A DNA stretch of 39,647 nt from Bacteroidia bacterium (GTDB taxonomy: Bacteria; Bacteroidota; Bacteroidia; Flavobacteriales; Flavobacteriaceae), in assembly GCA_018679315.1 (NCBI GenBank), contig JAHHLF010000080.1:1-39647 (forward strand), read 5' to 3'. The notes below the pieces were generated by a model. It saw only the letters and a list, made by a program, of their open reading frames with translations. It was not told where the DNA came from and made no database searches. Below are positions 1,144 to 11,500 of the stretch, in pieces. The stretch's first letter is position 1. Each line of letters starts with the position of its first letter. Made by a program: the position numbers and the translations under genes.

Positions 1144-1553
1144 AATTCATAAAGTTTTTACTCGTCGGAATATTTTTCGGGATTGTACTAGTGAAATCCG
1201 AAGCGGTTAGCTGGTATCGTATCTATGAGATGTTCAAATTTGAATCCTTCCATATGTACGGCATTATCGGTACGGCTGTGATCTTAGGCGTTCTTGCCGT
1301 TGCCCTCATCAAGCGTACTAAACTGAAAGACTTTCAAGGCAATGAGATAGAAATGCCGGATAAGGACAAAAGTTTTACCCGCTATTTTGTCGGAGGGAGC
1401 ATCTTTGGACTAGGATGGGCAATTGCTGGCGCATGCCCCGGCCCTATGTATGTGCTTTTAGGAACGGGTGTCTGGACGATCCTGATCGTGATCGCTGCTG
1501 CTGTTCTCGGTACGTTTGTTTACGGCTTGCTCAAAGACAGGTTACCGCATTAA
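1140..1553 (+). CDS. YeeE/YedE family protein (DUF6691 type), second half of the split transporter
   Basis: The ORF track starts this at 1053, inside the preceding gene. I place the start at the ATG at 1140, which overlaps the upstream stop as ATGA and gives 137 residues beginning MKFIKFLLVG. It has about four membrane segments and the motif AIAGACPGP near residues 95-103, the partner of the GGCTSGH motif in the first half, again with a conserved cysteine. The two short proteins together resemble one full YeeE. The 3' end overlaps the convergent GH16 gene by 4 bases, so there is no room for an intergenic terminator. Sulfur-compound transport is inferred from the family. Confidence 0.87.
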   Translation: MKFIKFLLVGIFFGIVLVKSEAVSWYRIYEMFKFESFHMYGIIGTAVILGVLAVALIKRTKLKDFQGNEIEMPDKDKSFTRYFVGGSIFGLGWAIAGACPGPMYVLLGTGVWTILIVIAAAVLGTFVYGLLKDRLPH

Positions 1554-2392
1554 TTGGAATACACCCTGATATAGTCTATGACGAATTCCTGAGGGAAAAT
1601 GGAATCATCAATATCGGGCCCTCCGAAATTCCCGCCTACAGCAGTGTTCAGGATCAAGTAGAAATCCTGGTTAAAAGGCCAGTGCTCTACCGTAAAAGTG
1701 GGAGGAAAATAGGTGTACAACAACACATCATCCACAAAGAATTCAATGCTGTTAGAAGTCCAATTGGCCACAAAAGTATGGAAGCCTTCTTCGATATCGG
1801 GGATTGCAGTGGTCTTGGTATTGATCGTATTTCCTGAACTCGCCTGGGTATGTACCGAGTTAAAGACTTCATCGGGATTTTTGCCCACATACTCCAGAAT
1901 GTCGATCTCGCCGCAGGTAGGCCAGCCTACATCCTCTATATTGGCACCCAGCATCCAGATCGCCGGCCAGACACCAGTTCCCACTGGCAGTTTCGCCCGG
2001 GCTTCAATACGTCCATAGGTGAATTCTACTTTATCTTGTGTAGTGATACGGGTAGATGTATACGTTCCGCCATCATTAAGAATGTTGATCGTAAGCATAC
2101 CATCCTTGACCTCGTGGTTGGTATCCGTATAAAGCTGAGGTTCGTTATTTCCCCAACCACAGATTCCCTGATCGCAACCGTCGCCTAATTCAAAATTCCA
2201 ATCGGCGGTATTGAGTTCCGTTCCCTCGAATTCGTCCTCCCAGATCAATACTGGTTCCGCCGGAGGGTCCGGATCGGGCATTGGATTGGGAGTGGCATCG
2301 GGGTTTGGTGTTTGCATAGTATCGGAGTCATTAGAATCTGAACTGCAAGCACCTATTAATAATGTGAGTATAAGAATCCACATACGTGACAT
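1550..2392 (-). CDS. GH16 family beta-glucanase (laminarinase-like) lipoprotein
   Basis: 280 residues. A short signal peptide ends in the lipobox LIGAC (Cys16), followed by a Ser/Asp/Pro-rich linker to about residue 47, so a lipid-anchored enzyme on a tether is expected. The catalytic domain (about 50-278) contains the GH16 signature EIDILE at 162-167, the beta-bulge form typical of laminarinases and other beta-1,3-glucanases; E162 is the expected nucleophile and E167 the acid/base. The upstream WPAIWML segment is also standard. Predicted role: endo-cleavage of laminarin or a similar beta-1,3-glucan at the cell surface. The context agrees: it is divergent from a GH149-GH17-GH30 operon. No T9SS tail or carbohydrate-binding module is present. 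Exact polymer specificity is inferred. Confidence 0.92.
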   Translation of the reverse strand: MSRMWILILTLLIGACSSDSNDSDTMQTPNPDATPNPMPDPDPPAEPVLIWEDEFEGTELNTADWNFELGDGCDQGICGWGNNEPQLYTDTNHEVKDGMLTINILNDGGTYTSTRITTQDKVEFTYGRIEARAKLPVGTGVWPAIWMLGANIEDVGWPTCGEIDILEYVGKNPDEVFNSVHTQASSGNTINTKTTAIPDIEEGFHTFVANWTSNSIEFFVDDVLLYTYFPPTFTVEHWPFNQDFYLILNTAVGGNFGGPDIDDSIFPQEFVIDYIRVYSN

Positions 2393-2565: not shown

Positions 2566-2651
2566 CTTAATTGCGATTAATAATTGTATTATTATGACCC
2601 TTAAATACAGCCAACAAAAAAAAATCCAACATCTAAATCAAGTAAGTGCTT

Positions 2652-5600
2652 ATGGGCGAACTGAAATACGTTCAAATAGGAAAAGAAGGGTATTTTAAGA
2701 TCTCCGATGTAGATAAAATTCGGCCTTTTTTTATGAGCATCGTAAGCGATTCCAACCATTGGATGTTCATTTCAAGTAATGGTGGATTGACTGCAGGTAG
2801 GAAGAATGCCGAACATTCTCTGTTTCCCTATTATTCAGATGATAAAATCACTGAATCCATCGAAATTACAGGCAGTAAGACGATTCTTCACGTACACAGG
2901 GAAGGGGGAAGTCAAATTTGGGAACCCTTTTCAGATAGATATTACGGCTTGCATGATATCAGCAGAAACCTGTATAAAAATTTGTATGGCAATACGATCA
3001 TATTTGAGGAGATCAACCACGATCTAAAGCTCAGCTTTCGATATCAATGGAATAGCAGCAATGTATACGGCTTCGTGAGGACTTCAACTCTAAGTAATGA
3101 AGGAGAAGAGGTTTCGATCTCAGTCCTGGACGGCATTCAAAATATTATCCCTTATGGAGTCGGCAGTGAATTGCAGAACCGGCAAAGTAACCTGGTAGAT
3201 GCTTATAAAAGAAGTGAGCTTTTAGAAGATTCGGGTCTTGGAATATATGCCCTAAGCGCAATTATTGTAGATAGAGCAGAACCGAGTGAAGCCTTAAAAG
3301 CGAATATTGCATGGTCTCTTGGCCTGGAAAAGCCTGCCTGCCTGGTGTCTTCCTTACAGCTAAATAAATTCAGGCAGGGAAAATCTATTACCGGAGAAAA
3401 GGATGTCAAAGCAGAGAAAGGGGCATATTTCGTAAACAAGGATCTTGTTCTAAATGCCAAGGATGAAAAAAGTTGGATGATACTGGCCAACGTGAACCAG
3501 GATCAAACTGCTATAGCAGAAATTGCGCAGGCCATACGCAGCGATGCACAACTTGCTGCTAAAATTGCAAAAGATATAGCTAAGGGAACAGAACGACTTG
3601 TCAGCTTAACTGCGGCATCCGATGGAATACAACTGACAGCCGATCATCTAAAGGATACACGTCATTTTGCGAATACACTGTTCAATATCATGCGAGGTGG
3701 GATATTCGATGACAACTACACAATTGAAAGATGGGATCTTGAGACATACTTGCTAAATGCCAATAGCAATATCTATTCAGAATTTGAAAAGGATATTTCG
3801 GCACTGCCTGAAAAATTTTCCATTACTGATCTTATAGATCTTGCTGCCAAGACTGATGATCCCGACATTAAACGCTTGTCTCAGGAATACCTGCCGCTTA
3901 AATTCAGTCGAAGGCATGGTGATCCAAGCCGTCCCTGGAATGTTTTTTCGATCAATACGCGTAGCGAAATTGATGGAAGCAAAATTTTGGATTATGAGGG
4001 GAATTGGCGGGACATCTTTCAGAACTGGGAGGCTCTTGCCCACTCCTATCCTGGATTCATCGAAGGCATGATCCACAAGTTCCTGAATGCCACAACTTTT
4101 GACGGGTATAATCCATATCGGGTAACCAAGGGTGGATTCGATTGGGAAACCGTTGAGCCAGACAATCCTTGGGCTTATATAGGGTATTGGGGAGATCACC
4201 AGATCATTTATCTATTAAAATTTCTCGAGTTCGCTGAAGACCATACCCCCGGGCAATTGGAAAGCTTTTTTAACCAGGAGATCTTTGTTTATGCCAATGT
4301 GCCTTATCAGATCAAACCTTATCCAGACCTATTGCAAGATCCGAAGGATACAATTGTTTTTGATGAGTCATTGGATCATACTATTCGTCAAAAGCGTGAT
4401 GAGCTGGGGGCAGATGGTGCGCTAATGGAAAGCAAGCAACACTCAATTTATAGGGTAAATTTCATTGAAAAGCTCTTGGCCACGGTTTTAGCCAAACTAT
4501 CAAATTTTATTCCCGAAGGAGGTATCTGGATGAATACCCAAAGGCCGGAATGGAATGATGCAAACAATGCGCTCGTAGGAAATGGCGTATCAATGGTCAC
4601 CTTGTACTATCTCAGGCGTTTTCTGGATTTCATGAATACGTTGCTGGCTAATTCCAAAAGTGAAGAATATCTCATATCCGTTGAATTGATAACCTTTTTC
4701 GAAGGGATCAACCAGGCCTTTCAGTCTCATTCTGCAATATTGGATAGTTCCATCAATGATAGAGATCGCAAAACGGTCGTAGATGGCCTGGGGAACGCGG
4801 CAAGTGACTTTAGAAGTAGGATATATGAAGAAGGATTTTCAGGGGACAAAAGATCCATTACAAGAGAAGAAATATTGGAATGTGTCGGCCTGGGACTTCA
4901 ATATTGTGAGCACTCAATTGAGGCCAATAAAAGGAATGACAATCTATACCATGCGTACAATTTAATGACGGTTGAAAATCAGGACGAAATTTCTATTTCC
5001 TACTTGAGTGAAATGCTGGAAGGACAAGTTGCCATCTTAAGCTCAGGGTACCTGTCGCCAGAGGAATCTCTGAAAGTCCTTGATGCCTTAAAGGGCAGCG
5101 CTTTATTTAGGGAGGATCAATTTAGTTATGTGCTATATCCCAACAAAGCCCTGCCTCGGTTCATGGAGAAAAATAATATCCCTGCGGAAAGCGTAAAAAG
5201 TTCCAGCTTGTTATCGACTTTGATCCGGGAGGGAAACACGCAAATAATTGATAAAGATATTGATGGCAAGTTCCACTTTAACGGTAATTTCAAAAATGCA
5301 AATGATCTTTCGGTGGCTTTGAAGGCATTACCTAATACTGAGATGTTTCCCATGTCTGACGATGATATAGAAGGAGTCTTGCAAATATTTGAAGATGTCT
5401 TTGATCACAAGGCTTTTACCGGCAGGTCTGGAACTTTCTTTGGCTATGAAGGTTTGGGTTCCATTTATTGGCATATGGTCTCTAAACTATTGCTGGCCGT
5501 TTATGAAACTTGCTGGCGGGCTATTGAAAGCAAGGCAGATGAAGTGACAATTGGCAAGCTTCTGGAGCATTATTATGAGATTAATGAAGGCATTGGGGTT

Positions 5601-6068
5601 CATAAATCTCCAGAGCTTTATGGGGCTTTCCCGACCGATCCCTATTCACATACGCCCCAGGGCAAAGGAGCACAACAACCAGGAATGACCGGTCAGGTGA
5701 AGGAAGACATCCTGAGCCGCTACGGCGAATTAGGTATCTATGTCCACGATGGTTTCCTTGGGTTTAATCCCTGCCTTTTGCGCAAGGAAGAGTTCCTTAC
5801 AAAGGACGAAATATTCGAATATGTAGACCTGAATGGCAAGTCGACCCAATTGAAAATTGAGGCCGGCTCACTGTGTTTCACTTATTGCCAGGTCCCTGTT
5901 ATATTTACGCTGGATGAAAGTGAAAGCTTGGAAATAATGTATCAGGATGGAGAATCAGTTCGTGCCGAATCGCTTAGATTGGACTTGGAAAATAGCCGTA
6001 AGATATTTGGAAGGACTGGCGAGATCAAGCAGATCAAAGCACATATAGACAAAGCTGTGCTCAATTAA
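2652..6068 (+). CDS. GH149-type beta-1,3-glucan phosphorylase (GH94-related)
   Basis: The ORF track opens at a GTG at 2646; the ATG two codons later is the more natural start, giving 1138 residues. The size, far above GH94 enzymes of about 800, and the segment RPEWNDANNALVG (W634-N635-D636) fit GH149, where the aspartate corresponds to the catalytic acid of the GH94-type WND motif. A second family-like block, GAQQPGMTGQ, lies near residues 1007-1015. There is no signal peptide, so it should act in the cytoplasm. Known GH149 members reversibly phosphorolyse beta-1,3-glucans to glucose 1-phosphate plus a shortened chain. Being first in an operon with GH17, GH30 and a sugar symporter supports this. 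The alternative is another large GH94-clan family such as GH161; I prefer GH149 from length and the laminarin context. Confidence 0.8.
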   Translation: MGELKYVQIGKEGYFKISDVDKIRPFFMSIVSDSNHWMFISSNGGLTAGRKNAEHSLFPYYSDDKITESIEITGSKTILHVHREGGSQIWEPFSDRYYGLHDISRNLYKNLYGNTIIFEEINHDLKLSFRYQWNSSNVYGFVRTSTLSNEGEEVSISVLDGIQNIIPYGVGSELQNRQSNLVDAYKRSELLEDSGLGIYALSAIIVDRAEPSEALKANIAWSLGLEKPACLVSSLQLNKFRQGKSITGEKDVKAEKGAYFVNKDLVLNAKDEKSWMILANVNQDQTAIAEIAQAIRSDAQLAAKIAKDIAKGTERLVSLTAASDGIQLTADHLKDTRHFANTLFNIMRGGIFDDNYTIERWDLETYLLNANSNIYSEFEKDISALPEKFSITDLIDLAAKTDDPDIKRLSQEYLPLKFSRRHGDPSRPWNVFSINTRSEIDGSKILDYEGNWRDIFQNWEALAHSYPGFIEGMIHKFLNATTFDGYNPYRVTKGGFDWETVEPDNPWAYIGYWGDHQIIYLLKFLEFAEDHTPGQLESFFNQEIFVYANVPYQIKPYPDLLQDPKDTIVFDESLDHTIRQKRDELGADGALMESKQHSIYRVNFIEKLLATVLAKLSNFIPEGGIWMNTQRPEWNDANNALVGNGVSMVTLYYLRRFLDFMNTLLANSKSEEYLISVELITFFEGINQAFQSHSAILDSSINDRDRKTVVDGLGNAASDFRSRIYEEGFSGDKRSITREEILECVGLGLQYCEHSIEANKRNDNLYHAYNLMTVENQDEISISYLSEMLEGQVAILSSGYLSPEESLKVLDALKGSALFREDQFSYVLYPNKALPRFMEKNNIPAESVKSSSLLSTLIREGNTQIIDKDIDGKFHFNGNFKNANDLSVALKALPNTEMFPMSDDDIEGVLQIFEDVFDHKAFTGRSGTFFGYEGLGSIYWHMVSKLLLAVYETCWRAIESKADEVTIGKLLEHYYEINEGIGVHKSPELYGAFPTDPYSHTPQGKGAQQPGMTGQVKEDILSRYGELGIYVHDGFLGFNPCLLRKEEFLTKDEIFEYVDLNGKSTQLKIEAGSLCFTYCQVPVIFTLDESESLEIMYQDGESVRAESLRLDLENSRKIFGRTGEIKQIKAHIDKAVLN

Positions 6069-6177
6069 TGCGCTCTAATAAGGAATGATAATCTTATGAA
6101 TGTTCAACAAGATATTTTTTTCAGAAATAAATATATGACTCGATATAAACCAACCCATTTTGCAAAAGTTAATCAAC

Positions 6178-7473
6178 ATGAGAGGATTCTTAAAGATCCT
6201 GGTACTCGTTTTTGTTCTTTCAGGATTTAATTCATGCAAGGAAACCCATAAAGACCTGGAAGAAAAACGATCAGATATAAAAAAGGAAGTGACAGCAAAA
6301 GAGATTTTGGGTAATCCCGAATATTTAGCCATCTCCTATGGAGGCTACAGGCAAGATTCCCGTGATATTCAACCCACTGTAGAAGAATTAAAGGATGACA
6401 TGCGCATATTGTCAGCCATGGGAATTAAAATTGTGCGAACTTATAATGTGCAGTTGGCTCAGGCCTCAAATCTCCTTAAGGCCATCAGTGAGCTGAAACA
6501 GGAAGATGCCGAATTTGAAATGTACGTCATGCTTGGTGCCTGGATCGATTGTAAAAATGCCTGGACAGGTGAAACACCAGATCATGAGGTGGAAAGTGAG
6601 CAGAATGAAGGTGAAATTGCCCGTGCCGTTGCCTTGGTAAAACAATATCCGGATTTAGTAAAGGTACTTGCAGTTGGCAATGAGGCCATGATAAAATGGG
6701 CGACCAGTTATTATGTGCAACCAAAGGTCATCCTGAAGTGGGTAGTTCATTTGCAGGAGCTAAAAAGTTCTGGCGAATTGCCAGCGGATCTTTGGATAAC
6801 CAGTTCCGATGATTTTGCTTCCTGGGGGGGCGGTGATCCTGAATACCACACCGAAGACCTGGCAAAGTTGGTCCATGCAGTTGATTATATTTCCTTTCAT
6901 ACGTATCCTTACCACAACACTCACTACAATCCTCAATTTTGGTGGGTTTCGGAGGAAGAATCACAGAGCTCCGATAAAGATAAAATTGACGCTGCTATGT
7001 TCCGAGCCATAGAGTTCGCTAAGTCTCAGTATAAGGCTGTCTCTGATTATGTAAAAAGCCTGGGGGAAGAAAAACCGATCCATATTGGGGAAACCGGATG
7101 GGCAACTATCTCAAACGGACACTACGGTCCGAATGGCTCAAAGGCAACGGACGAATTAAAAGAGGCGTTATACTATCAACATATCAGAGAATGGACAAAT
7201 GCTTCCGGTATCTCATGCTTTTATTTTGAAGCTTTTGATGAACCTTGGAAGGACTCGCACAATAAAAAAGGCTCAGAAAACCATTTTGGATTGTTTACCG
7301 TTGACGGCCAGGCAAAGTATGCACTTTGGGATTTAGTGGACCAGGGCATTTTTGAAGGATTAACTCGAAATGGAAACACTATAACAAAGACGTACAACGG
7401 AGATAGGGAGGCTTTGATGCTGGATGTTCTTGTGCCCCCTACCAAAGAAGAGCATGCTGTAGTTCTCCAATGA
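6178..7473 (+). CDS. GH17 family beta-1,3-glucanase lipoprotein
   Basis: The track start is a TTG at 6160; the ATG at 6178 gives a clean signal peptide MRGFLKILVLVFVLSGFNSC with lipidation at Cys20 and a mature protein of 431 residues in total. GH17 hallmarks are present: the acid/base in VGNEAM (E169), the motif ISFHTYPYH after it, and the nucleophile in IGETGWAT (E305). Bacterial GH17 enzymes of this kind attack unsubstituted beta-1,3-glucan and laminari-oligosaccharides. It sits 109 bases after the phosphorylase and 46 bases before the GH30 gene, consistent with one operon. The enzyme is predicted at the outer membrane or periplasm; whether it is exo- or endo-acting is not visible. Confidence 0.9.
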   Translation: MRGFLKILVLVFVLSGFNSCKETHKDLEEKRSDIKKEVTAKEILGNPEYLAISYGGYRQDSRDIQPTVEELKDDMRILSAMGIKIVRTYNVQLAQASNLLKAISELKQEDAEFEMYVMLGAWIDCKNAWTGETPDHEVESEQNEGEIARAVALVKQYPDLVKVLAVGNEAMIKWATSYYVQPKVILKWVVHLQELKSSGELPADLWITSSDDFASWGGGDPEYHTEDLAKLVHAVDYISFHTYPYHNTHYNPQFWWVSEEESQSSDKDKIDAAMFRAIEFAKSQYKAVSDYVKSLGEEKPIHIGETGWATISNGHYGPNGSKATDELKEALYYQHIREWTNASGISCFYFEAFDEPWKDSHNKKGSENHFGLFTVDGQAKYALWDLVDQGIFEGLTRNGNTITKTYNGDREALMLDVLVPPTKEEHAVVLQ

Positions 7474-7519: not shown

Positions 7520-9001
7520 ATGAATATCAAATCAAACATAGTTGTCCTTATGACACTGATTCTAAGTGCTTGTACTCCCCAGAACAACTTGGATATCGAG
7601 GTATTTGAAACTTCGGCCCGGGGAAACAAACTAACACCCATTGCAACAGGAAAAAGAGTAAGTGCAGACTCTGAAATTAAGTTATTACCTGAACGGGAAT
7701 TCCAGACCATTACTGGTTTCGGCGGTTCCTTTACAGAATCATCGGCCTATTTGTTAAACCAACTTGGTCCGGAAAACCGAAAAAATATAATCAATGCGTA
7801 TTTTGGCGCGGATGGAGCCCAATATTCCCTAACCAGAACCCATATAAATTCTTGTGATTTTTCTCTTAGTAATTATTCTTACGCAGAGGTTGAGGGTGAC
7901 ATGGAATTGGAACATTTTACGATCGAGGAAGACAAAGAAGACATCATACCCTTCATCAAAGAAGCCCAGGCATTATCTGCTGAAGGATTTAGGATCATTT
8001 CATCACCATGGACTGCCCCACCCTGGATGAAGGACAACAACAAATGGGTAGGCGGCAAATTAATGCCCGAATATTATGATACCTGGGCACTCTTCTTTTC
8101 AAAATATATCGATGCGTACAAAGAAGAAGGAATTGATATCTGGGGGATAACCGTCGAAAATGAGCCTCTTGGTAATAATAGCAATTGGGAAAGTATGCAC
8201 TTCACGCCAGAAGAAATGACGGACTTTGTACAAAATCACCTGGGACCCAAATTAGAAGCTGATGGCAAGGGGGATATAAATATATTGGGATATGATCAAA
8301 ACAGAGAGCACCTGAATGAATGGGTAGACGAAATGTATAGAGATGAAGCAGCTTCAAAGTATTTTTCCGGCGTGGCGGTTCATTGGTATGCAAGTACTTT
8401 TGAAGTGTTTCCTGAGGCCTTGCAATATGCGCATCAAAAGGCGCCTGAGAAACACATAATTCAATCGGAAGCCTGCGTGGATGCACAGGTTCCCGTATGG
8501 CAAGATGATGCCTGGTATTGGTCTAAGGAAGCCACGGATTGGGGTTATGACTGGGCACCAGAACAGGACAAACACCTGCACCCAAAATACGTGCCCGTGT
8601 ATCGGTATGCTCGTGATATCATTGGATGTTTGAACAATTGGGTCGATGGATGGGTAGACTGGAACATGGTATTGGATCGTCAAGGAGGTCCCAATTGGTT
8701 TAAAAACTGGTGTGTAGCACCCGTCATCGTAGATCCCGAACAGGACGAAGCCTATTTTACCCCTCTGTATTATACCCTCTCGCATTTCAGTAAGTATATC
8801 CGACCCGGTGCCGTACGGATCGGATTTGAAACCACAGACGATGCCCTGTTGGTTACAGCGGCCAAAAACCCTGATGGTTCTATAGCAGTAGTAGTACTCA
8901 ATCAAGGTATGGAAGCAAAGGAAGTAGTACTTTCTTTGGGTGACAAGGATGCAGGATTGAAGATTGACGCCCAGGCCATACAAACCATAATAGTCAACTA
9001 A
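7520..9001 (+). CDS. GH30 family glycosidase lipoprotein (likely beta-1,6-glucosidase on laminarin branches)
   Basis: 493 residues with a lipoprotein signal ending LILSAC (Cys18). The GH30 fold is shown by the N-terminal GFGGSFTESSAY block, the acid/base in TVENEPLG (E215) and the nucleophile in IIQSEACV (E317), followed by the C-terminal beta-domain (about residues 420-493). Related GH30 enzymes in marine flavobacterial laminarin loci remove beta-1,6-linked glucose side chains, making the backbone accessible to GH17 and GH16 enzymes. That activity is inferred from context; GH30 also includes beta-glucosylceramidase-like and xylanase members. It is followed after 24 bases by the GPH symporter. 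Confidence 0.9.
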   Translation: MNIKSNIVVLMTLILSACTPQNNLDIEVFETSARGNKLTPIATGKRVSADSEIKLLPEREFQTITGFGGSFTESSAYLLNQLGPENRKNIINAYFGADGAQYSLTRTHINSCDFSLSNYSYAEVEGDMELEHFTIEEDKEDIIPFIKEAQALSAEGFRIISSPWTAPPWMKDNNKWVGGKLMPEYYDTWALFFSKYIDAYKEEGIDIWGITVENEPLGNNSNWESMHFTPEEMTDFVQNHLGPKLEADGKGDINILGYDQNREHLNEWVDEMYRDEAASKYFSGVAVHWYASTFEVFPEALQYAHQKAPEKHIIQSEACVDAQVPVWQDDAWYWSKEATDWGYDWAPEQDKHLHPKYVPVYRYARDIIGCLNNWVDGWVDWNMVLDRQGGPNWFKNWCVAPVIVDPEQDEAYFTPLYYTLSHFSKYIRPGAVRIGFETTDDALLVTAAKNPDGSIAVVVLNQGMEAKEVVLSLGDKDAGLKIDAQAIQTIIVN

Positions 9002-9025: not shown

Positions 9026-10591
9026 ATGAGTCAAGTAAAAGTACTTTCTAAAGACAAAGTCCCTATTGGGCAAAAAGCCGCTTTTGGGGCAGGTCATTTT
9101 ATACTGAACATTTTACCGGGAACACTTGGTGTCTTTATTCAGTTCTTTTTACTCACCGCATGGGGGGTTGACCCTTTATGGGCAGGACTTCTGGGAGGAT
9201 TGCCCAGAATATTCGACGCTATTACCGACCCGATTATGGGATTTATTTCGGACAATACTAAATCGAGGTTTGGTAGGAGAAGACCCTACATTTTTATAGG
9301 GGCACTCATAAGTGGTATTCTCTTCTTTTTGATGTGGCAATTGGATGATAATGCATCACAAACCTATATCATTTGGCATGTCATGGTGATCCAAATATTA
9401 TTCCTTATCGGGAATACAATGTTTGCTACACCTTTAGTAGGTCTTGGTTATGAAATGACATCAGATTATAATGAAAGAACCCGGTTGATGAGTTTTGCCA
9501 ATAGTATGGGACAGGTTGCCTGGATGATCGTACCCTGGTTGTATGTTATTATACCGGACTCAGAGACCTTTAATACGCAAACGGAGGGCGTTCGTACTAT
9601 GGCTCTTATTGTGGGAGCTATGTGTGTGGTCTTTGGTATTCTTCCCGCATTATTTTGCAAGGGTATTGATGCTTCACATATGGAAAACCGAAAAGAGATC
9701 AATTTCAAAACACTGTCAACTAACATGAAAGATCTGTTTAAGGGCATTATTCAAGTGTCTAAAAACAAGCCCTTTATGAAGTTATGTGGCGCTACGTTCT
9801 TGGTTTTTAACGGCTTTCAGCTTGTAGCCGCATTCGGCGTCTTCATTATTGTATTCTATATATATAACGGCAGCTATGAATTAGCAGGTACCTGGCCCGC
9901 ATGGTTCAATACGATCAATGCGATGCTAACAGCCTTTATTGTGATCCCAATTATTGCAAAAATGGCCAATAAATGGGGGAAGAAAAATGCATTTATAATA
10001 TCCACTGTCTTGTCAATTATCGGTTACATCTTAAAATGGTGGGGATTTGATATTGAACTCAATAATTCATTCAACCAAACAGGATTTGGAAAAGGATTAA
10101 ATTCGGCCGTTGGTTCACTTTTCGAGACGATAAATCCAACATTGGAAAGTATTGGGATGTCCTGGTTTTCTATAGATCCTGGAAGTGATATACCATGGCT
10201 CATCTTTGTCCCAATTCCATTATTTGCTTTTGGTATGGGAGGATTATTTACGTTGATGATGTCGATGACGGCTGATGTATGTGATCTGGATGAGTTAGAA
10301 AATGGTATGCCCAGAAAAGAAGGTACATTTGGCGCCATTTATTGGTGGATGGTCAAATTAGGACAAGCCATTGCACTTGTTTTAGGCGGGTTGATTTTGA
10401 AGATCGTAGGATTTGATCCGAATCTAACGGAACAATCCTTAGAAACCATGAATAGACTAAGAATCGCCGATATAATTGTCCCGGCATCAACGGCTGCCCT
10501 GGCTGTCTGGGTCATGTGGAAGTATTCTCTGTCGGAAGAACGAGCCCGGGAGATTAAAGCCAAATTGGAAGAACGAAGGGGCGTATTATAG
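9026..10591 (+). CDS. GPH-type MFS sugar:cation symporter
   Basis: A 521-residue integral membrane protein with about 12 membrane segments. Features of the glycoside-pentoside-hexuronide symporters are visible: an early GLPRIFDAITDPIMGFISDNT region, the following SRFGRRRPYI loop, and LGYEMTSDYNERTRLM (about residues 140-155). It is longer than typical GPH carriers because of an extra hydrophilic loop around residues 345-385. It sits between secreted glycosidases and a cytosolic GH17, so I infer that it carries gluco-oligosaccharides or glucose across the inner membrane. No SusC/SusD pair accompanies it in the window, so the outer-membrane entry route is unknown. Confidence 0.88.
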   Translation: MSQVKVLSKDKVPIGQKAAFGAGHFILNILPGTLGVFIQFFLLTAWGVDPLWAGLLGGLPRIFDAITDPIMGFISDNTKSRFGRRRPYIFIGALISGILFFLMWQLDDNASQTYIIWHVMVIQILFLIGNTMFATPLVGLGYEMTSDYNERTRLMSFANSMGQVAWMIVPWLYVIIPDSETFNTQTEGVRTMALIVGAMCVVFGILPALFCKGIDASHMENRKEINFKTLSTNMKDLFKGIIQVSKNKPFMKLCGATFLVFNGFQLVAAFGVFIIVFYIYNGSYELAGTWPAWFNTINAMLTAFIVIPIIAKMANKWGKKNAFIISTVLSIIGYILKWWGFDIELNNSFNQTGFGKGLNSAVGSLFETINPTLESIGMSWFSIDPGSDIPWLIFVPIPLFAFGMGGLFTLMMSMTADVCDLDELENGMPRKEGTFGAIYWWMVKLGQAIALVLGGLILKIVGFDPNLTEQSLETMNRLRIADIIVPASTAALAVWVMWKYSLSEERAREIKAKLEERRGVL

Positions 10592-10612
10592 ATCGTTAAA
10601 TAAGAGCAAATA

Positions 10613-11500
10613 ATGTCATACATAGGTAAGGAAAAACGATTGGCCCTTTCCGGCCTGGATTACTCCGGGAAAAGTACAAAGGAACTACGTAAGATGTGTC
10701 GGCAGATACTTGAAGAGGGCATGCATGGCTTATGTTTCAGCCCCTATGAGGACGGTCAAAAACCGGGGGAACAGATTTCTGAGACACAAATACGCAGAAG
10801 GATGGAGATCATACAGCCCTATACCAGCTGGATTCGCTCTTTTTCATGCACTGATGGTAATGAGGAAATCCCTCGAATCGCCCATGAATATGGTATTAAA
10901 ACAATGGTAGGGGCCTGGTTAGGAGACGATCCTGAGATCAACAAAAAGGAGATTCAAAATCTTATTGAACTGGCTAACAAGGGGTATGTTGATATCGCCG
11001 CCGTGGGCAACGAGGTTATGTACCGAGGTGATCTTTCCGAGGATGAATTATTAGCATTTATCGCAGAAGTCAAGGAAAATGTAACGGATATTCCTGTCGG
11101 TTATGTTGATGCCTATTATGAATTTACAGAACGCCCCAGAATAACCGAGGCTTGCGATATTATTCTAGCCAATTGTTATCCTTTCTGGGAGGGTTGCGAT
11201 TTTGATTATTCCTTGCTCTACATAAAGGATATGTACCGCAGGGCTCAACATGCAGCAAAGGGAAAGAAAGTAATAATTTCGGAAACGGGCTGGCCCAGCC
11301 AAGGGACAAATCTGGAAGGTGCATTTCCGGGTTATGAAAGCGCATTGAAATATTTCATGAATATGCAGAAGTTAGCCGCGGAAGAAGACATTGAGATCTT
11401 CTACTTCTCCTCATTCGACGAGCCTTGGAAAACAGGCGCTGAAGGCGATGTGGGCGCTTACTGGGGTTTATGGGATAAAGAGGAAAAACTGAAATTCTAA
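10613..11500 (+). CDS. GH17 family glycosidase without signal peptide (predicted cytosolic)
   Basis: 295 residues starting MSYIGKEKRL with no signal peptide or membrane segment. It has the GH17 acid/base in AVGNEVMY (E134) and the nucleophile in ISETGWPS (E224), and ends in the family's FSSFDEPWK and YWGLWD blocks. It is the second GH17 of the locus, much shorter than the lipoprotein and clearly diverged from it. Placed 21 bases after the symporter, it probably acts on imported beta-1,3-gluco-oligosaccharides, possibly preparing chains for GH149, or as a transglycosylase, which some GH17 proteins are. The compartment is inferred from the missing signal sequence. Confidence 0.85.
   Translation: MSYIGKEKRLALSGLDYSGKSTKELRKMCRQILEEGMHGLCFSPYEDGQKPGEQISETQIRRRMEIIQPYTSWIRSFSCTDGNEEIPRIAHEYGIKTMVGAWLGDDPEINKKEIQNLIELANKGYVDIAAVGNEVMYRGDLSEDELLAFIAEVKENVTDIPVGYVDAYYEFTERPRITEACDIILANCYPFWEGCDFDYSLLYIKDMYRRAQHAAKGKKVIISETGWPSQGTNLEGAFPGYESALKYFMNMQKLAAEEDIEIFYFSSFDEPWKTGAEGDVGAYWGLWDKEEKLKF

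Follow-up and report, generated by a model that had tools for sequence, protein, structure and literature searches.

An apparent MlGH17B orthologue without a signal peptide in a flavobacterial laminarin utilisation cluster

A gene in the window (the whole stretch of 39,647 nt that was analysed) encodes a further member of a characterised enzyme type, located in a cluster of a known kind. The gene, GH17B (10613–11500, forward strand), starts with ATG and specifies a GH17 protein of 295 aa that lacks a signal peptide and, judged from its sequence, is an apparent orthologue of MlGH17B, whose transglycosylase chemistry it probably shares. Laminarin, an algal storage sugar, represents a major pool of marine carbon; to the enzymes that may finish its fragments inside the cell, this locus adds a member of a characterised type. 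Dozens of Flavobacteriaceae carry GH17B in the same kind of neighbourhood, a recurrence well beyond chance. The source genome (2.45 Mb, 380 contigs, 88.5% complete) was found to hold two GH17 genes, both in the window.

Active Site and Fold

The MlGH17B protein of Muricauda lutaonensis (WIW39500) has 295 aa and no signal peptide, and is a beta-1,3-glucanosyltransglycosylase (PMC11005184). Acting on beta-1,3 chains from DP4 upwards, it splits off laminaribiose at the reducing end and transfers the remainder via a beta-1,6 linkage; hydrolysis products from Glc5 and Glc6 were seen as traces only, and the beta-1,6-branched product chains reached DP26 (PMC11005184). We compared GH17B with MlGH17B via the published residue list at 22 positions with an offset of +1: the 21 named in PMC11005184 and the nucleophile, which was placed by alignment. 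Twenty of the 21 listed active-site residues were identical, the exception being Ser275, which is Ala in GH17B, and the nucleophile position was occupied by Glu. The MlGH17B nucleophile is printed as Glu233 in PMC11005184, while the present alignments point to 223.

The catalytic acid/base of GH17B, E134 (codon 11012–11014), lies within AAVGNEV and corresponds to Glu133 of MlGH17B and Glu99 of RmBgt17A, from which its catalytic role is taken (PMC11005184); it was invariant in all 80 orthologues. The nucleophile, E224 (codon 11282–11284), placed by alignment, lies in the SETGW motif, within IISETGW. Substitution by Ala of the RmBgt17A counterparts of MlGH17B residues Tyr136, Trp191, and Glu192 abolished transfer (PMC11005184, citing Qin et al. 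2015), and all three residues are present in GH17B as Y137, W192, and E193. Y137 (codon TAC, 11021–11023) is an aglycone-side platform residue equivalent to Tyr102 of RmBgt17A, which is required there for transfer; W192 and E193 (11186–11191) were kept in 80 of 80 orthologues.

Membership of GH17B in family GH17 was supported by both catalytic glutamates and by a match to the Pfam profile Glyco_hydro_17 (PF00332) of 42 bits, against a cut-off of 28.2, that covers the C-terminal 77 aa only. The best match in a PDB sequence search was RmBgt17A of Rhizomucor miehei (4WTP), with 6e-34 in the single-sequence and 5e-46 in the profile search. The laminarinase FbGH17A (6FCG) followed far behind, at 4e-5 in the single-sequence search, and the profile search agreed; given this far weaker match and the missing export signal, we rejected a GH17A-type laminarinase as the identity of GH17B. 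The AlphaFold2 model (mean pLDDT 91.6) has the GH17 TIM-barrel fold, and its best match among PDB folds was again RmBgt17A (4WTR/4WTP; TM 0.79/0.87, 28% identity over the fold alignment). RmBgt17A (4WTP, 4WTR, 4WTS) is thus the nearest solved structure by both sequence and fold, sharing the transfer-site Tyr, Trp, and Glu and both catalytic glutamates, but it is a fungal enzyme. Bacterial GH17 transglycosylases are also represented by the proteobacterial Glt1, Glt3, Glt7, and Glt20, which are 27–31% identical to MlGH17B; of these, Glt1, Glt3, and Glt7 attack their substrate at the non-reducing end (PMC11005184).

Start Codon and Export

We judged export by N-terminal hydropathy, taken as the 12-residue maximum, a measure that differs from SignalP. 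The value for GH17B was 0.11, compared to 2.6–2.8 for GH16, GH17A, and GH30 of the same cluster, and the highest value across 80 GH17B orthologues was 1.27. Reading upstream in frame from the ATG, the codons are ATA, CAA, and GAG, followed by TAA at 10601, with no ATG, GTG, or TTG between. As this stop lies 12 bases upstream, a longer GH17B carrying a signal peptide is excluded.

The first-pass annotation had described an unexported GH17 with both catalytic glutamates, lying between two transporters, and had counted a start further upstream, giving the protein a signal peptide, among the observations that would overturn this description. Both glutamates were read in the translation, the symporter and the sugar porter flank the gene, and the upstream start was ruled out as above. 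Its proposal of two GH17 enzymes split between compartments was also supported, GH17A carrying a lipoprotein-type signal that GH17B lacks, although this arrangement had already been published (PMC13188888). Its statement that most characterised bacterial GH17 enzymes carry signal peptides applies to the laminarinases; the bacterial transglycosylases characterised so far form a different group.

The Laminarin Utilisation Cluster

GH149, GH17, GH30, a symporter, and GH16 are co-localised in the window, as in the laminarin utilisation clusters of marine Flavobacteriia; Pfam examination of window ORFs showed no gene of a SusC/SusD pair, which a PUL in the strict sense would need. The head of the cluster is formed by a GH16 glucanase with a lipoprotein-type signal, encoded on the opposite strand (1550–2392, reverse strand). 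On the forward strand, it is followed by a GH149 beta-1,3-glucan phosphorylase (2646–6068; NCBIfam NF058639, 1785 bits against a cut-off of 1150), without an export signal as judged by hydropathy, and by GH17A (6160–7473, probable start 6178), an exported lipoprotein-type protein whose endo-laminarinase function is taken from FbGH17A and MlGH17A (PMC6246565, PMC13188888). GH30 (7520–9001) is an exported protein with the lipobox LSAC and, by comparison with FbGH30 (PMC6246565), a probable beta-1,6-glucosidase debranching laminarin. Next comes a GPH/MFS_2 sugar:cation symporter (9026–10591, forward strand), a probable laminari-oligosaccharide importer that ends 21 bp upstream of GH17B. Downstream, a sugar porter (MFS, TIGR00879; 11524–13065, reverse strand), probably importing glucose or hexose, is convergent with GH17B.

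The row GH149/GH17A/GH30/symporter/GH17B, or most of it, was found in almost every one of the 80 closest loci, and the adjacency of symporter and GH17B is conserved among the orthologue loci. The same row has been published for Muricauda and partly for Formosa (PMC13188888, PMC6246565). GH17B resembles MlGH17B in being a standalone, single-domain protein of the same length, without a signal peptide, encoded at the equivalent position, behind GH17A, GH30, and an MFS transporter. Apart from the Ala at Ser275, the window differs in the sugar porter that faces GH17B downstream and in the clear lipoprotein signal of its GH30, whereas the GH30_1 of M. lutaonensis was predicted to be cytoplasmic (PMC13188888). 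A strict lipobox pattern was present in 14 of 74 GH17A and at least 43 of 68 GH30 orthologues; these counts are lower limits, since most of the other proteins show relaxed forms by eye. In eight of the 43 GH30 orthologues, the first in-frame Met lies far upstream, and the published cytoplasmic prediction may thus be a start-site effect, with long annotated starts hiding the signal. In several genomes, the symporter gene is followed by a gene for a 204-aa membrane-like protein without a Pfam match (e.g., L012 9280–9894; L016 7845–8459).

Fused and Standalone GH17 Proteins

FbGH17B of Formosa sp. Hel1_33_131 is an MFS-GH17 fusion reported to be an exo-beta-1,3-glucosidase releasing glucose (PMC6246565, PMC11005184); it has Met at the Tyr136 position and is 53% identical to MlGH17B (PMC11005184). 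It resembles GH17B in that a related GH17 domain is tied to a symporter in a laminarin cluster, but the window protein is not such a fusion: the symporter (9026–10591) and GH17B (10613–11500) are separate ORFs, each with its own stop codon. GH17B also differs in having Tyr at the position in question.

Eight loci (L009, L010, L022, L057, L070, L076, L077, and L082) carry both an MFS_2-GH17 fusion and a standalone GH17B. The fused domains were 52–58% identical to the window protein, the standalone GH17B that follows 71–80%. Since both forms reside in the same loci, the fusion was rejected as an orthologue of GH17B. In a tree built by a quick method, with some modest supports, standalone proteins, fused domains, and a third standalone type fell into separate groups, with one long fused branch placed on its own. 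The published description of FbGH17B, fused and with Met at the Tyr136 position, suggests that it belongs to the fused paralogue type, which would explain why different activities were reported for the supposedly equivalent MlGH17B and FbGH17B. The conflicting transglycosylase and exo-hydrolase activities thus probably belong to paralogues, not to one orthologous enzyme. The paralogue status of the Formosa fusion type appears to be unreported.

The symporter of the window has a positively charged C-terminal tail, with seven Lys/Arg in 23 residues, and members of its transporter family are expected to have a cytoplasmic C-terminus. A GH17 domain fused there should therefore be cytosolic, and the fusions in the eight loci support both the coupling of these enzymes to import and their cytosolic position.

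A third GH17 type is encoded directly downstream of GH17B in seven loci (L017, L024, L041, L048, L076, L077, and L081). Its proteins are about 25% identical, have frames of 312–329 aa, and show no obvious signal peptide at the N-terminus.

Co-Occurrence of GH17B, GH149, and GH17A

We counted gene presence in 400 Flavobacteriaceae genomes. GH17B was detected in 117, GH149 in 140, and GH17A in 129 genomes, and all three were found jointly in 114. GH149 occurred alone in 12 genomes and with GH17A only in 14; GH17A and GH17B without GH149 were found in one genome, and GH17B alone in two, both of them fragmented assemblies. The presence of GH17B tracks that of the exported GH17A more closely than that of GH149.

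The same-genus genome G157 retains GH16, GH149, the symporter, the sugar porter, and prmA in unchanged order (L085, 1535–10514), with the symporter starting 65 bp after the end of GH149. GH17A, GH30, and GH17B are absent from this locus, and GH17A and GH17B were not found elsewhere in the genome. Neither GH149 nor the symporter thus depends on GH17B. Since the missing genes would lie on both sides of the symporter, their pattern implies two separate losses in G157 or gains in the others. In two of the loci examined, a GH3 lipoprotein gene was found in place of GH149, a replacement noted earlier (PMC13188888). In GH149-lacking Flagellimonas/Allomuricauda, genes for the GH3 lipoprotein and a large PKD/CBM4_9 protein lie upstream of GH17A (L025 528–5506; L012 212–4921).

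Proposed Role and Alternative Explanations

We consider it likely that GH17B is a cytosolic retaining enzyme of the MlGH17B type, the last in the laminarin row, that reworks imported chains mainly by transfer. Outside the cytoplasm, laminarin would be cut and debranched by the exported GH16, GH17A, and GH30, yielding oligosaccharides for uptake through the symporter. In the cytosol, GH17B would bind a beta-1,3 chain with a DP of at least 4, with E134 acting as the proton donor and E224 as the attacking nucleophile, and laminaribiose would be released from the reducing end. From the glycosyl-enzyme, the sugar would then pass mostly to a second chain (via beta-1,6 in MlGH17B) and in part to water. 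Phosphorolysis by GH149 would turn laminaribiose, along with chains that carry no branches, into glucose 1-phosphate and glucose. The reaction of GH17B in this scheme is carried over from its orthologue, while import, flux, and physiological purpose are what we infer from the setting of the gene. MlGH17B acts poorly below DP5, and the periplasmic MlGH17A leaves DP2–4; either longer chains are imported or lengthened by GH149, or a low activity on DP4 is enough. The first-pass annotation had offered two roles for GH17B, the processing of imported oligosaccharides and a transglycosylase activity making acceptor chains for GH149. Action on imported oligosaccharides is probable, considering the unexported MlGH17B (PMC11005184) and the published two-compartment arrangement (PMC13188888), and so is the transglycosylase activity, which is proven for MlGH17B (PMC11005184).

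That this activity would serve to make or reshape acceptor chains for GH149 seems highly improbable, even though GH149 was present in 114 of the 117 GH17B genomes (Fisher p 9e-70, shared ancestry ignored) and in 49 of the best-scoring 54 GH17B-GH149 pairs both genes shared a contig, separated by a median of 5.3 kb. Characterised GH149 enzymes phosphorolyse from DP2 and use glucose as an acceptor about as well as longer chains (G2–G6), which makes a prepared acceptor unnecessary (PMC6484121). Moreover, 26 of the 140 GH149 genomes lacked GH17B, including G157, in which the symporter is kept, and conversely GH17B, of the Leu type described below, persisted without GH149 in 11 genomes, the locus search behind this count having used 50 of the 80 loci. 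A simpler reading places GH17B after the exported laminarinase and the importer in the pathway. The Muricauda authors proposed a storage role, in which GH17B would branch an internal beta-1,3-glucan reserve. The long branched chains built by MlGH17B (PMC11005184) and the reversibility of GH149, which could lengthen chains, speak for such a role, but GH17B is tied to exported laminarinases, and we did not find a clear cytosolic beta-1,6-glucosidase or debranching enzyme in this 88.5% complete genome. The only GH30 found is exported. Among the GH3 genes detected, two encode proteins with export signals, a third is incomplete at its start, and the single leaderless one seen appears NagZ-like, as judged by its neighbour gene. 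The missing debranching enzyme weakens the storage proposal, which we regard as improbable.

It is also unlikely, if less markedly so, that GH17B is mainly a hydrolase trimming imported oligosaccharides, like FbGH17B. The glucose release reported for that enzyme (PMC6246565, PMC11005184), together with the Leu137 of three near relatives of the window protein, points in this direction. However, the FbGH17B-type fusions are paralogues found beside standalone GH17B, their domains have Leu or Met where GH17B has Tyr, and MlGH17B itself yielded only the traces of hydrolysis products mentioned above.

Variation at Residue 137

Among the 80 standalone orthologues, residue 137 was Tyr in 56 and Leu in 24; in the fused domains, it was Leu in seven and Met in one. 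Although its group otherwise consists of three Leu137 proteins (support 96), the window protein has Tyr, and so has its counterpart in another genome of the genus, G357. On a tree built without column 137, three to four changes were needed at this residue. With two Tyr genes from one small GH149-lacking MAG set aside, Tyr was found with GH149 in 55 cases and without it in none, and Leu with GH149 in 13 and without it in 11. On well-supported branches, this amounts to one independent contrast only. The correlation between Tyr137 and GH149 is thus a lead that essentially stems from one lineage and is statistically not established.

A broader reading, which we find doubtful, would make position 137 (Tyr versus Leu/Met) a natural switch between transfer and hydrolysis that is matched to the way chains are finished. 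Tyr forms would then always accompany GH149, Leu forms would be the sole type where GH3 replaces GH149, and the window lineage would have reverted from Leu to Tyr. The Tyr/Leu variation at this transfer-critical residue offers a cheap and direct test of how transfer versus hydrolysis is controlled. That 24 of the 80 orthologues, three of the nearest relatives of the window protein among them, have Leu at residue 137 appears to be unreported, as does the presence of the Leu form in all GH149-lacking genomes, the small Tyr-type MAG being set aside.
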